Below, piece after piece: positions 4,434-42,868 of a DNA stretch of 42,877 nt. Below the pieces are notes generated by a model. That model was not told where the DNA came from and did not search any database. It worked only from the letters and a program-made list of their open reading frames with translations. This DNA comes from Acidobacteriota bacterium (GTDB lineage: Bacteria; Acidobacteriota; UBA6911; RPQK01; JAJDTT01): contig JAJDTT010000262.1 of the NCBI GenBank assembly GCA_022827025.1, positions 1-42,877 on the forward strand, read 5' to 3'. Position 1 is the first letter of the stretch. Each line of letters begins with the position of its first letter. The position numbers and the translations under genes are program-made.

Positions 4434-4514
4434 GTTCGACCGGGATTCGGGCGCGGCGTTTTCAAACTCCTACCTCCGACCGCAGCAAGAGAAGAATTTA
4501 GTGTCCGGAATGGG

Positions 4515-4554
4515 GGACAAGAATGTCCGCCGTCCAGGGGACAGGAATGTCCCC
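4515..4554. repeat. Two adjacent stem-loops, loops AGAA and GGAA
   Basis: The first stem-loop (4515-4528) pairs GGACA with TGTCC around AGAA. The second (4537-4554) pairs GGGGACA with TGTCCCC around GGAA. Both are perfect. They follow the MORN-repeat gene and open a 457-bp gap (4434-4893) filled mainly by repeats; nothing else in that gap looks coding. Confidence 0.7.
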
Positions 4555-4560
4555 GCTCCG

Positions 4561-4686
4561 GTGGGGCCGGAGTTGGGCGAATAGGAGGGGGGACTTTCAG
4601 TCCCCCGAGGGAGTGGGGGTAGGAAAACCCCCACTCCTTCTTTTTCTCGCAGGATTTCACCGGACCGGGGCCGGTGGGGGAGCTCC
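4561..4686. repeat. Composite intergenic repeat, copy 1
   Basis: A 126-bp block that recurs, nearly identical and in the same orientation, at 35603-35725. It contains in order an 8-bp stem with a TTC loop (4588-4606), an 11-bp stem with AGGAAA loop (4610-4637), a T-rich tract, and a GC-rich inverted repeat near ACCGG/CCGGT (about 4658-4675). The few differences between copies include compensated stem-length changes. No ORF is conserved in it. Confidence 0.85.
4610..4637 (+). terminator. Likely intrinsic terminator after the MORN gene
   Basis: GGAGTGGGGGT pairs perfectly with ACCCCCACTCC around AGGAAA and is followed by a T-rich run (TTCTTTTTCTC). It is embedded in the composite repeat and lies downstream of the + strand MORN gene, so the repeat may have been adopted as a terminator. 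The T-run favours the + strand. Confidence 0.55.
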
Positions 4687-14916: not shown

Positions 14917-15906
14917 ATGAAATATCGTCAGCTTGGAAACAGCGGCCTCAAGGTCTCGATCATCGGCCTGGGCACCAACGTGTTCGGTCAGCACGACACC
15001 TTCACCCACTACTGCGATGAGAGGGAGACGGCCGCCATCATCCACCGGGCGGCCGATCTGGGCATCAACCACATCGACACCGCCGACATGTACTCGCGCG
15101 GCGTCTCCGAGACCTACATCGGCAAGGCCGTCGCCGGACGGCGCGACCGCTTCGTCATCGCCAGCAAGACGGGCCTTCCGGTGGGGGACGGTCCCAACGA
15201 TGCGGGGCTCTCGCGCGGCCACATCATGAGCAGCATCGAAGGCACACTCCGCCGGCTGGATACGGACTACGTCGACCTCTACTACGCGCACCGGCCGGAC
15301 CCGGCGACGCCCATCGAGGAGACGCTCCGCGCCTTCGACGACCTGGTTCGCCAGGGGAAGGTGCGCTACGCCGGATGCTCCAACTACGCGGGCTGGGAAA
15401 TCGCCACGGCGAGCGGCGTTGCCGAACGGCGAGGCTATTCCCCGTTCCTGGTCAGCCAGTCGCCGTACAACCTCTTCGAACGGTCGCTCGAAGCCGAGGT
15501 CCTTCCCTCCTGCCTGCACCACGGGCTGAGCATCGCCGCGTACTCCCCCCTGGCCCAAGGCGTCCTGACGGGCAAGTATCGCCGGGGAGCGCCGATCCCG
15601 CGCGGCACCCGGGCCTGGAAGAATCCGAGCCCCGTCCTGGCGAGCTACATGACGGGCGAGCGGCTGGAGACGGTCGAGCGGCTCGATGCCTGGACCCGGG
15701 ATCACGGCCACCGGCTGAGCGAGCTGGCCATCGCCTGGCTGCTGGACAAGCCCTTCGTCTGCACGGTCCTGGTCGCGGTCACCAGCATCGAACAACTGGA
15801 AGCCAACGCCGCCGCCACCGGCTGGACGCTCTCCCCGGGACAAGTAATAGAAGTTGAAGCCATCGTAGCCGGGAGCGGCGATTTCCAATCGCCGACAGGG
15901 GTGTAG
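14917..15906 (+). CDS. Aldo/keto reductase
   Basis: This 329-residue cytoplasmic TIM-barrel oxidoreductase reduces aldehydes or ketones with NAD(P)H. The catalytic tetrad is visible: Asp54 and Tyr59 (HIDTADMYS), Lys84 (IASKTG) and His125 (YYAHRPD). The N-terminus (MKYRQLGNSGLKVSIIGLG) is canonical and the length is normal. GAGAGAGAATTC gives a modest ribosome site before ATG 14917. The last ~12 residues (AGSGDFQSPTGV) are encoded by the stem-loop repeat starting at 15871, which also supplies the TAG stop; ordinary family members end near QVIEVEAIV. The neighbouring ThuA gene is convergent. The substrate is unknown; several AKR subfamilies of this type act on sugars. Confidence 0.88.
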   Translation: MKYRQLGNSGLKVSIIGLGTNVFGQHDTFTHYCDERETAAIIHRAADLGINHIDTADMYSRGVSETYIGKAVAGRRDRFVIASKTGLPVGDGPNDAGLSRGHIMSSIEGTLRRLDTDYVDLYYAHRPDPATPIEETLRAFDDLVRQGKVRYAGCSNYAGWEIATASGVAERRGYSPFLVSQSPYNLFERSLEAEVLPSCLHHGLSIAAYSPLAQGVLTGKYRRGAPIPRGTRAWKNPSPVLASYMTGERLETVERLDAWTRDHGHRLSELAIAWLLDKPFVCTVLVAVTSIEQLEANAAATGWTLSPGQVIEVEAIVAGSGDFQSPTGV

Positions 15907-16006
15907 GGGGGACGATAGTTCCCCCTGTACACCTTTGCCTCTTCTGTGCAGGCGAAGACAGGGCGGCTGGAAACCGCTTTTCCAGCGGGCGACAAGGATG
16001 TCGCCC
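15876..16006. repeat. Composite stem-loop locus between the reductase and ThuA genes
   Basis: Four inverted repeats lie in a row: CGGCGATT/AATCGCCG around TCC (15876-15894); a long stem from GTGTA plus GGGGG to CCCCC plus TGTACAC (15901-15932); GCTGGAAA/TTTCCAGC around CCGCT (15966-15986); and GGGCGACA/TGTCGCCC around AGGA (15987-16006). The first overlaps the reductase 3' end. The locus resembles 28709-29057, sharing GAAGACAGGGCG and the GTAGGGGG...CCCC...TGTAC module, but without the 168-bp insertion found there. Confidence 0.8.
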
Positions 16007-16019
16007 CTCCTTTCGGGGG

Positions 16020-24683: not shown

Positions 24684-24742
24684 AGATTGTGGGTATTTTG
24701 TGAGTCTGGGGATGGGCGGGTGGAAAGCGGCCGGTTTCAATG

Positions 24743-24870
24743 GGCGCCCGGAAGGACGCCGCTCCCAGTGGGCGCCTGGAAAGACGCCCCTCCCAGAAGG
24801 CGCCCGGAAGGACGCCGCTCCCAGTGGGCGCCTGGAAAGACGCCCCTCCAGACGCCCCTCCTCAGGCGTC
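24743..24870. repeat. Tandem array of five stem-loops between PhyH and soxB
   Basis: Stem-loops start at 24743, 24770, 24799, 24826 and 24851. The first four alternate two types: GGCGCCCGGAAGGACGCC (loop GGAA) and GGCGCCTGGAAAGACGCC (loop TGGAAA), joined by CGCTCCCAGTG or CCCTCCCAGAA linkers. The 56-bp pair 24743-24798 is repeated without change at 24799-24850. The last stem (GACGCC/GGCGTC, 24851-24870) contains the TGA stop of the PhyH gene. The rest of the gap 24633-24742 holds the sox promoter elements. Confidence 0.85.
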
Positions 24871-27777: not shown

Positions 27778-28771
27778 ATGACGCACAATGCAGACGCACG
27801 ATCCGGCGAACCACTCGCCCCTTTCCATGAGGTCCGGATCGGCGGCGACGAACCGGCGGAGATCCGGCGTTCCTTCGACGAGAACGGCTACCTGTTCTTC
27901 AAGGGCGCCCTCAACGCGGATACCGTTCTCAGAGCGAAGGAGGACATCGCCCGCGTCCTGCAGGAGCAGGGCTTCATGCGAAAGGGTTCGGCCGAACCGC
28001 GGGCGACGCCCGGGGCCAGCGCCGTCGAAGTCGACAGCGGACCCCTCTACAGGCTGAAGTCCCCCGGGAAGCTGATGGCTTCTCCCGAACTCCAGAAGGC
28101 CGTCGACCTCGCGTTTGGAGAGAGGGTGCGGGTCGCCCGGTCCATCGGATTCCGTTACTCCATGCCCACCGACGCTCCCTATCTCACGCCGCCTCACCAG
28201 GACCACTTCTACATCCGGGAGACCGACGAGTTCCGCATGATCTGGATCCCGCTGATGGCTGGAGATCGCCAACGGAGGGCTGGCCATCGCCGCCGGCTCC
28301 CACCGGCACGGCCTCCGGGAACATGTGGAATTCGACGGAGTCTACTCCTATTTCTTCAAGGGACGGCCGCAGAAGGGAGTGCGACCCGAAGACATCCGCG
28401 GCCAATGGACCTCCTCGCGGTTCGAAGTGGGGGACCTCCTCATGTTCCACAGTTGCGCCGTCCACCGGGCGATCCCCAACACCAGCGGCCTGGTGAGACT
28501 TTCGCTCAACACCATCACCTACCCCGCGCGAAGACCGACGATGTGGCAGGCCGAGCGGACCGGGCCGGAACTGGAAGTCTTTCGGGAGCAGGTGAAGCGG
28601 ATCTGCGACGCCCAGGGCATCGTCGGCGACCGCTTCGAAGAGATCCAGCTCATGGCCTTCAAGCAGGGGGACGATCCGAGTCCCGAGCTGATCGCGAGGC
28701 TGGAGGAGCGGCGGTTTCCTAACCGCCGGCCAGGAACGTCGGCATCCCTGCCGCCGACCAGGGGGAGGTAG
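27778..28771 (+). pseudogene. Second PhyH-family dioxygenase, frameshifted near 28256-28270
   Basis: The first part (27778 to about 28256) encodes an Fe(II)/2-oxoglutarate oxygenase with His140-x-Asp142 (PPHQDHFY) and ends normally at FRMIWIPLM. The family sequence then continues in the +1 frame as LEIANGGLAIAAGSHRHGL and includes FHSCAVHRAIPNTSGLVRLS with the distal iron His. A TGA at 28253-28255 in the +1 frame limits the shift to the following ~15 bases; one extra base in GGCTGG would explain it. Both halves keep full family conservation, so the change is recent or an assembly error. The last ~25 residues and the TAG stop come from the stem-loop locus at 28709. It is 24 bp after the CocE-like gene. 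Confidence 0.8.
28709..28758. repeat. Stem-loops encoding the tail of the second PhyH gene
   Basis: CGGCGGTT/AACCGCCG around TCCT (28709-28728) is the exact reverse complement of the soxG-end stem-loop. A second, GTCGG/CCGAC with GGCA/TGCC nested inside (28738-28758), follows. Both are read through as protein (RFPNRRPG...) before the TAG stop at 28769. Confidence 0.75.
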
Positions 28772-28784
28772 GGGGACGGCAGTC

Positions 28785-28952
28785 CCATAAGCGCTAACCT
28801 GTATGCCTGACCGGCTCCGGGGACGGGGGGGACAGGAACGTCCCTCCTGTAGGAGCGGGGGTTTTCCGACCCCCGCTTCCGGTTTCCCCGGCGAATTGAC
28901 CGGATCTGGCGATCTCAACTTTCCGGTCCATCAATCAACTTAGCGCTTATGG
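28785..28952. mobile_element. MITE-like 168-bp inverted-repeat element
   Basis: The element is bounded by a perfect 13-bp inverted repeat, CCATAAGCGCTAA and TTAGCGCTTATGG. It is flanked by 9-bp direct repeats with one mismatch (ACGGCAGTC at 28776-28784 and ACAGCAGTC at 28953-28961). Inside are two stem-loops: GGGAC/GTCCC around AGGAAC (28829-28844) and GCGGGGGT/ACCCCCGC around TTTCCG (28855-28876). It encodes no protein. It interrupts a GTAGGGGGAC...CCCCC module whose uninterrupted relative is at 15903-15925. It looks like a non-autonomous transposon; the family is unknown to me. Confidence 0.6.
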
Positions 28953-29011
28953 ACAGCAGTCCCCCTTGTACGCTTTTCGATGGTTGAGTCGTACGGGAGC
29001 AAAGAAGACAG

Positions 29012-29057
29012 GGCGACTAGAAATCGCCATTCCTGGTGGGCGATTAGGAAATCGCCC
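29012..29057. repeat. Two stem-loops before the beta-propeller gene stop
   Basis: GGCGA/TCGCC around CTAGAAA (29012-29028) and GGGCGATT/AATCGCCC around AGGA (29038-29057), 26 bp apart. The preceding GAAGACAGGG is shared with 15953-15962. They end 3 bp from the stop of the convergent beta-propeller gene. Confidence 0.75.
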
Positions 29058-29060
29058 CTC

Positions 29061-29876
29061 CTAGATCTCCATCCGGCAGACAACCCCCACGTCGTCGCAG
29101 TACCAAAGAACACCGTCCCGGATGCTCATGCCGTGGGGCACCGGATCCTCGTCCCCGAGCTGGATCCTCTCGACGATCTCTCCCGTACCGGGATCGTGCT
29201 TGAAGAAAGCGTTCTGGTTGGTGTCCGCGCACCACAGGTCCCCCCCGTCCCAACCGATCCCGTGCGGACGGTTCCCGGAGGTGGGGAACCGCTGCTCGAC
29301 GATCCAGTTCTCGGGATCGATGCGATAGATCATTCGCGACGGCGGCACCGCCACCCAGAGTTTGCCGTCCCGCCACTCCAGACCGTGAGCGCCGGTTCCG
29401 TCGCGGGGACTGCTGTCGTAGGCGGCGGGCGCGGGCTGTCCGCTCGGAGCAGGCTCCGGAGGAGGAGAGAGCGGACTCTGCCGGTGGGGAGCATCCGAAG
29501 GCATTCTGTAGATCACGCCCGCCCCCGGCGTGAAGTGCTTCGCCATCGTCGTGCCATTGGTCGCGTCGGCACGGATGATCTCCCGGCTGTAGGTGGAGGC
29601 CATCCAGATCGCCTCGCCGTCGTAGGTAATCCCGCTGGGTTTGACGCAATCGGTGTCGAAGCCGCGAAGGACCTTTCCGTCCTCGTAACGGACGAGAAAT
29701 GCGCGGCCGTTATCGCCGTCGATGATCCAAAGTCCGTCCTGGGTCGCCTGCAGACCGTTGGGGTGGGGACCGGGACTCTTGAAGACCACCTCCACCCGGC
29801 CGGCGTCGCGCACGGGCACCTTGCTCATCACCGGTGTGGCGGCCATGAATGCGAGAAACTGCCTGCGTGCCATCAT
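29061..29876 (-). CDS. SMP-30/NHL-type beta-propeller protein
   Basis: This 271-residue protein begins with a short hydrophobic export signal containing MARRQFLAFMAATP, weakly Tat-like. The start is at 29876 (or ATG 29873), with GGGAGGAAAG upstream; the frame extends to 30032 inside the upstream neighbour without a signal. The body has repeated propeller blades, such as GPHPNGLQATQDGLWIIDGDNG, KPSGITYDGEAIWMAST, HGLEWRDGKLWVAVP, RPHGIGWDGGDLWCADTN and VPHGMSIRDGVLWYCDD. A proline-rich insertion (SPLSPPPEPAPSGQPAP) sits between blades. Relatives include gluconolactonases and virginiamycin-B-lyase-like proteins; the activity is unknown. Confidence 0.75.
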   Translation of the reverse strand: MMARRQFLAFMAATPVMSKVPVRDAGRVEVVFKSPGPHPNGLQATQDGLWIIDGDNGRAFLVRYEDGKVLRGFDTDCVKPSGITYDGEAIWMASTYSREIIRADATNGTTMAKHFTPGAGVIYRMPSDAPHRQSPLSPPPEPAPSGQPAPAAYDSSPRDGTGAHGLEWRDGKLWVAVPPSRMIYRIDPENWIVEQRFPTSGNRPHGIGWDGGDLWCADTNQNAFFKHDPGTGEIVERIQLGDEDPVPHGMSIRDGVLWYCDDVGVVCRMEI

Positions 29877-35371: not shown

Positions 35372-35541
35372 CCATGTTGCAAGTGAAGGAGCGGCGTCAT
35401 CCTTGGCACCGTCTCACGACCTCGCATTCAAGAAAAACCGAGCGGACGCATCGTCTCTCCCTCGCCCGTGTTCGTCCTCACCCCTCCCCCAGCCCGAAAA
35501 CGAACGGAAGGACCGACCTCCCTTCGTCTGAGAAAAACATG

Positions 35542-35725
35542 CCCCCCGGAGGGGGGACATTCTTGTCCCCCTCTTCTCTACGGTTGCTTTCGCTGGTCTC
35601 CGGCGGGGCCGGAGTTAGGCGAATAGGAGGGGGGACTTTTAGTCCCCCCGAGGGAGTGGGGGTAGGAAAACCCCCACTCCTTTTCACGCAGGATTTCGCC
35701 GGACCGGGGCCGGTGGGGGAGCTCC
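35542..35725. repeat. Composite intergenic repeat, copy 2, with preceding stem-loops
   Basis: CCCCCC/GGGGGG around GGA (35542-35556) overlaps GGGGGACA/TGTCCCCC around TTCT (35552-35571). From 35603 the sequence repeats 4561-4686: a 9-bp stem with TTT loop (35629-35649), the 11-bp stem with AGGAAA loop (35653-35680), and the ACCGG/CCGGT segment. The 8-bp stem in copy 1 is one base pair longer here on both sides. Confidence 0.85.
35653..35680 (+). terminator. Possible terminator within composite repeat copy 2
   Basis: The same perfect 11-bp stem and AGGAAA loop as at 4610-4637, here followed by TTTTC. It lies 327 bp after the amidohydrolase stop, so its role as that gene's terminator is less certain. 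Confidence 0.4.
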
Positions 35726-42661: not shown

Positions 42662-42691
42662 CGAGGGTAGCGCCATAAGCGGCGTCCGGAG

Positions 42692-42868
42692 CGGCGACTT
42701 TCTAGTCGCCGGCTGGGACCGGCGTCCGGAGCGGCGTCTGGAGCGGCGTCGTCCTCGGCGCCGACTGGGACCGGCGTCCTTCCGGGCGCCGGGCGCTGGC
42801 GACGTGGAGCGGCGACTCAGCCGGAGAACGACGCGACCCCGCAGGGCACCCACACACAAGGGGTGCCC
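42692..42868. repeat. Stem-loop cluster at the right edge
   Basis: The final 216 bp hold no gene. Stem-loops: CGGCGACT/AGTCGCCG around TTCT (42692-42711); CGGCGTCG/CGGCGCCG around TCCT with one wobble (42744-42763); CCGGCGTCC/GGGCGCCGG around TTCC with one wobble (42771-42792); and GGGCACCC/GGGTGCCC around ACACACAAG (42844-42868), whose loop differs from the others. CCATAAGCG at 42673 repeats the end of the 168-bp inverted-repeat element at 28785. Confidence 0.75.

Follow-up and report, generated by a model that had tools for sequence, protein, structure and literature searches.

The segment at 28786-28951 of the stretch of Acidobacteriota DNA analysed here (42,877 nt in all; the window) is a MITE, 166 bp long and without an open gene, whose sequence points to the IS186/IS421 type of the IS4 family. 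We consider it very probable (roughly 93%) that this MITE, which comprises the ends of such an element, a scrap of its transposase and two REP-like hairpins, was moved in trans into a GGGG-N-CCCC palindrome of a REP-like array. Its anatomy gives good support to a mechanism of transposition. An IS186-type transposase acting in trans would bind the CATAAGCGCTAA ends, move the MITE by the cut-and-paste chemistry expected of the IS4 family, and join it into the axis of the palindrome, duplicating 11 bp; the receiving palindrome is one copy of a REP-like hairpin array. The features are as follows.

28705-29062, no strand: host repeat unit, a REP-like hairpin array of about 180 bp when uninterrupted (comparison of copies)
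28768-28785, plus strand: left half of the host palindrome GTAGGGGGACGGCAGTCC, which the insertion interrupts (sequence, folding)
28775-28785, plus strand: target duplication, left copy GACGGCAGTCC, 11 bp (flank comparison)
28786-28951, plus strand: MITE, internal-deletion derivative of probable IS186/IS421 type (IS4 family), 166 bp (ends, duplication, homology to the congener IS)
28786-28797, plus strand: left terminal inverted repeat CATAAGCGCTAA; the sequence stays homologous to the left end of the IS as far as about 28811
28829-28844, plus strand: internal stem-loop 1, GGGACAGGAACGTCCC, REP-like (folding)
28855-28876, plus strand: internal stem-loop 2, GCGGGGGTTTTCCGACCCCCGC, REP-like, with dozens of genome copies (folding, copy search)
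28882-28920, plus strand: remnant of the transposase N-terminus, VSPAN*PDLAIST (in the IS, FFPGNWRELAAST; alignment with the congener IS)
28940-28951, minus strand: right terminal inverted repeat; sequence homologous to the right end of the IS begins at about 28924
28952-28962, plus strand: target duplication, right copy GACAGCAGTCC, 10/11 identical (flank comparison)
28952-28969, plus strand: right half of the host palindrome (sequence)
15880-16011, plus strand: related host unit without the MITE, its palindrome uninterrupted at 15903-15932

The sequence-only reading of this DNA had described a MITE-like insertion with perfect 13-bp inverted ends at 28785-28952 and 9-bp flanking repeats with one mismatch. 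Both are present as described (CCATAAGCGCTAA at 28785-28797, its reverse complement at 28940-28952; flanks ACGGCAGTC and ACAGCAGTC), but the thirteenth base belongs to the target, the perfect ends being 12 bp long (CATAAGCGCTAA) and the real duplication 11 bp (GACGGCAGTCC and GACAGCAGTCC, with one mismatch). In three two-ended copies from other genomes (L063, L142 and L146), CAT is preceded by G or T, and this base recurs beyond the opposite end of the element, where it completes the duplication. It is therefore target and not element, which sets the bounds of the window element and the length of its duplication. With the boundaries so corrected, the label of MITE is right, and parent-type IS, target duplication, paralogous empty sites and absence at the syntenic place in congeners all bear out the insertion. 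The duplication length of such elements is easily misread, as target bases extend the apparent terminal repeat.

Since the region is rich in inverted repeats (134 pairs in the window), one could ask whether the inverted ends arose by chance in an intergenic stretch full of hairpins, where nothing was ever inserted. This explanation is refuted. Of ten perfect 12-bp inverted pairs lying 80-600 bp apart in the window, the MITE alone has matching 11-bp flanks; moreover, the same ends occur with matching 11-bp flanks in several phyla and never in controls, and empty sites exist. When the ends are taken as CATAAGCGCTAA, the flanks agree by at least 75% at 9, 10 or 11 bp in 24 of 42 candidate pairs, and nine of these 24 match at 11/11.

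The empty sites come from the host repeat itself. As first read, the element splits a stem-loop module, the host palindrome, which starts GTAGGGG and folds strongly, and a related module runs uninterrupted at 15903-15932. To this we can add at least five further uninterrupted copies in the same genome (C260, C234, C83, C23 and C76) and one in a congener. The five own-genome copies and the congener copy cross the insertion point with a single GACGGCAGTCC-like core, so that paralogues within the same genome supply a clean empty site. GAAGACAGGGCG, rightly seen after both loci, belongs to the host repeat unit; CCATAAGCG does recur at 42673, but there it looks like a chance 9-mer, followed by GCGTCC and not CTAA. 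In the comparison with relatives that lack the insert, which had been proposed, none of three congeners showed the MITE at the syntenic locus. In G203 this place is a short hairpin-bearing spacer, while in G204 and G205 the first gene is followed by other sequence, the middle of the G205 locus being only partly seen with its syntenic flanks on different contigs.

Other repeats occur in the window. A second long intergenic repeat unit (4512-4686 and 35540-35725; 77 nt at 81% plus 48 nt at 94%) has its own hairpins and is related to sequence beside the MITE fragment at C129. In addition, 28-nt hairpin units are repeated at 24713-24852 and 42678-42799, as inverted copies whose stems vary and whose loops hold a purine-rich core.

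A search for a transposase gene with matching terminal repeats led to a complete IS of 1,361 bp in the same-genus genome G204 (locus L199), and to no intact gene in the genome of the window. The ends of this IS match those of the MITE, one of them with one mismatch, and it has a perfect 11-bp duplication, GGTTTTTAACC, in the palindromic target GCGGGGGTTTTTAACCCCCGG. The transposase was located by inspecting the sequence immediately internal to the ends, which in Nitrospinia and other MAGs encodes the N-terminus MxEDWxxLLSFFPxxWEELA and a matching C-terminus; these termini, used as query, recovered near-complete transposase genes in G204. Clustering of open reading frames between the ends, in at least 118 stretches of GTDB genomes, yielded no transposase, only unrelated neighbouring genes. 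The IS4 family is defined by a Y(2)R(3)E(6)K motif and an approximate D(60-110)D(100-150)E spacing (PMC2266710). The G204 transposase matches PF01609 (E 5e-16) and scores 151.7 bits against NF033592, the IS4 family model (cut-off 115). It has the motif, as YRLRWQVELVFKRFK; its first spacing, 57, falls slightly short of that approximate range, and its second is 137. Similarly, the 11-bp duplication of the L199 IS is about one helix turn, which fits the family.

The MITE descends from an element of this kind. Its left end matches the L199 IS over 24 nt at 87.5%, it aligns with the IS over about 13 transposase codons (FFPGNWRELAAST) better than all of 1000 shuffles, and its right arm beyond the terminal repeat does so better than 994 of 1000. 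Because left end, right end and transposase codons all match, the MITE is an internal-deletion derivative; the two have diverged in their interiors, so its direct parent is a relative of the L199 IS and not that exact copy. A second IS copy in G204 (L202, 1432-2776, minus strand) is flanked by GGGGGGACGCAGTC and GCTGGAAGCCCCCC, which belong to separate hairpins, a pattern that recombination of one IS copy with another would be expected to leave.

Further copies with the same ends had been predicted, and the genome of the window does hold them, although the window MITE alone has two full ends and the others are one-ended or internal fragments. Right-arm partial copies lie at C297, C182, C129, C52, C126, C237 and C26; at least four right-arm copies are one-ended, and single ends were seen at C129, C297 and C52 (the latter two with one mismatch). 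Matches to CATAAGCGCTAA with one mismatch are not enriched in this genome (6, against 23 for the reversed pattern) and are thus no evidence by themselves. The transposase-terminus query found no intact IS186-type transposase here, only broken remnants at C241, C126, C55, C26 and C303, loci that share sequence with the MITE. The MITE is therefore probably immobile in this genome now. A genome that holds only relics, a MITE that retains transposase codons, and other copies with the same hairpin-codon junction but without the left end could also reflect a full-length IS that lost its middle in place after inserting. We regard this history as improbable, because several right-arm copies at different flanks have the identical internal deletion joint, AAST codons fused to TTTCCGGTCCATTAATCAACTT, which argues that the deleted form itself spread, as transposition as a MITE would have it.

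We assign the MITE to the IS186/IS421 type by sequence likeness, since copies of IS186 and IS421 have the same ends and IS186 sits in the same type of palindrome. In E. coli K-12, the ends of IS186 A, B and C read CATAAGCGCTAACTTAAGGG, with CATAAGCGCTAA as in the MITE, and the three copies sit in GCGGGGATCACTCCCCGC, GCGGGGAGTAATCCCCGC and CCGGGGATAATTCCCCGG, all GGGG-N6-CCCC palindromes. The CATAAGCGCTAACTTAAGGG ends also belong to a copy of IS421 carried by an E. coli plasmid, and a comparison with plasmids gave IS421 and other IS4-family elements as the best annotated relatives. The G204 transposase is 32% identical to that of E. coli IS186 (E 7e-52). The string CATAAGCGCTAA was not found in the literature searched, and a consensus target sequence for IS186 has reportedly been published. 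The MITE and its parent-type IS thus put a name to 12-bp ends shared by small elements from several phyla.

The targets of these elements have a consensus of their own. Across 105 distinct flanks, the sequence adjoining the element is GGGG-N5-CC, and GG-N5-CC occurs in 30% of them compared with 0.4% of control positions. Within the genus, the window MITE and eight other loci (L199, L202, L259, L263, L269, L265, L268 and L272) abut half of a G-rich palindrome; beyond those of L199, further IS ends, one of them in G203 and the rest in G204, sit in the same kind of hairpin; C129 and C182 are not clearly beside such a half. Strong target hairpins are found in the genus of the window and in E. coli K-12. 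A hairpin requirement at all targets was considered and is unsupported outside the genus, where the mean stem is 3.8 against 3.3 in controls; as this barely exceeds controls, the general rule is a G-run/C-run sequence. This target choice of the IS186 type explains insertion into REP-like palindromes in the genus of the window.

Both stem-loops reported within the element were found, the second folding far better than shuffles and the first moderately so, and the second is multi-copy. REP-like hairpins thus lie inside and around the element, and at C110 a Y1 transposase gene has the same two hairpin types directly 3' of it, an arrangement that would suit a composite REP/BIME element moved by a RAYT, its inverted ends incidental. 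The C110 protein matches Pfam Y1_Tnp above cut-off, and its best model is NF047646, REP_Tyr_transpos, at 65.9 bits; this being below that family's cut-off of 80, we call the hairpins REP-like. Y1 transposases (IS200/IS605) leave the target unduplicated and can do without terminal inverted repeats. An 11-bp duplication flanks the window element, whose ends are those of IS186 and which retains the remnant of a DDE transposase. The duplication in particular contradicts movement by a RAYT, which we hold to be very unlikely. A second Y1 transposase gene resembling that at C110 lies at G000:C22:11372-11557 (L244).

As to the suspected link between mobility and the stem-loop family, the hairpins serve as landing sites (GGGG-N-CCCC), and the element carries two of them as passengers; there is no sign, however, that they have a role in transposition. 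It is tempting to speculate that IS186-type transposases and the REP/RAYT system are coupled, REPs serving as safe landing pads and MITEs spreading REPs, and that the 12-bp ends mark an unrecognised superfamily of gene-ferrying MITEs, although we think this rather unlikely. Were it true, two unrelated transposition systems would amplify the same repeats, and the genes ferried would be those for four-helix-bundle and DUF559 proteins.

Beyond the genus, 24 of 194 genomes sampled from the order of one Desulfobacterales genome contain the 16-nt end CCATAAGCGCTAAGTT, with about 70 matches and none for the reversed control. CAACTTRGCGCTTATGG is present in at least 118 stretches of GTDB genomes; among the 80 matches listed, most are from Desulfobacterales, Brocadiaceae, Schekmanbacteria, Glassbacteria and Nitrospinia. 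Elements of MITE size bounded by the same ends were seen in Desulfobacterales, Brocadiaceae, Schekmanbacteria, Glassbacteria and others, the paired ends enclosing roughly 98-609 bp with varied interiors. Some single CAACTTRGCGCTTATGG matches (Gemmatimonadetes and Clostridia, for example) look like chance, the following sequence being unlike element ends. Viral contigs, phages and plasmids searched for the ends, the element and the N-terminal transposase piece gave nothing relevant. Among elements with the same ends, those at L165, L166, L083 and L116 (Desulfobacterales, Brocadiaceae) hold a small gene or fragments resembling a four-helix-bundle (23S rRNA intervening sequence) protein, a 45-aa piece matching TIGR02436 below its cut-off (E 0.004). 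Those at L048, L071, L073, L126 and L127 (Schekmanbacteria) hold the first part of a gene for a DUF559 endonuclease-like protein (NF007294, E 2.6e-13), and contigs break inside them, which suggests a high copy number. The case is one of ordinary transposition, notable mainly for the same 12-base ends on mini-elements in several phyla.

Known systems share parts of this arrangement. Like IS186 and IS421 of E. coli, the element has CATAAGCGCTAA ends and an insertion at the axis of a GGGG-N-CCCC palindrome, and its parent-type IS is alike in size (about 1.34 kb) and in its YREK DDE transposase; unlike them, the window element is a gene-less 166-bp derivative, its palindromes are REP-like repeats, and the transposase of the parent-type IS stands at 32% identity. 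The host palindrome resembles GTAG-tagged REPs with their RAYTs (PMC3733652, PMC2817692) in its GTAGGGG start and in the RAYT-like gene that the same hairpins follow, whereas the hairpins here are landing site and passengers and not the mobility mechanism. IS elements have already been described as inserting into REPs, and ISRm22, of the IS4 family, does so at the axis of the palindrome (PMC1525189, PMC2266710). All copies of this Sinorhizobium meliloti element lie in REPs; it is a full IS of the IS4Sa subgroup, in contrast to the window MITE, which is of another subgroup. Finally, Chunjie of Geobacter uraniireducens and QMITE2 of Coxiella, truncated copies of which resemble REPs, are similarly short and intergenic, with terminal repeats and a target duplication (reviewed in PMC10969869); the window MITE differs from both in its probable IS186-type parent and in the two REP-like hairpins that it carries.
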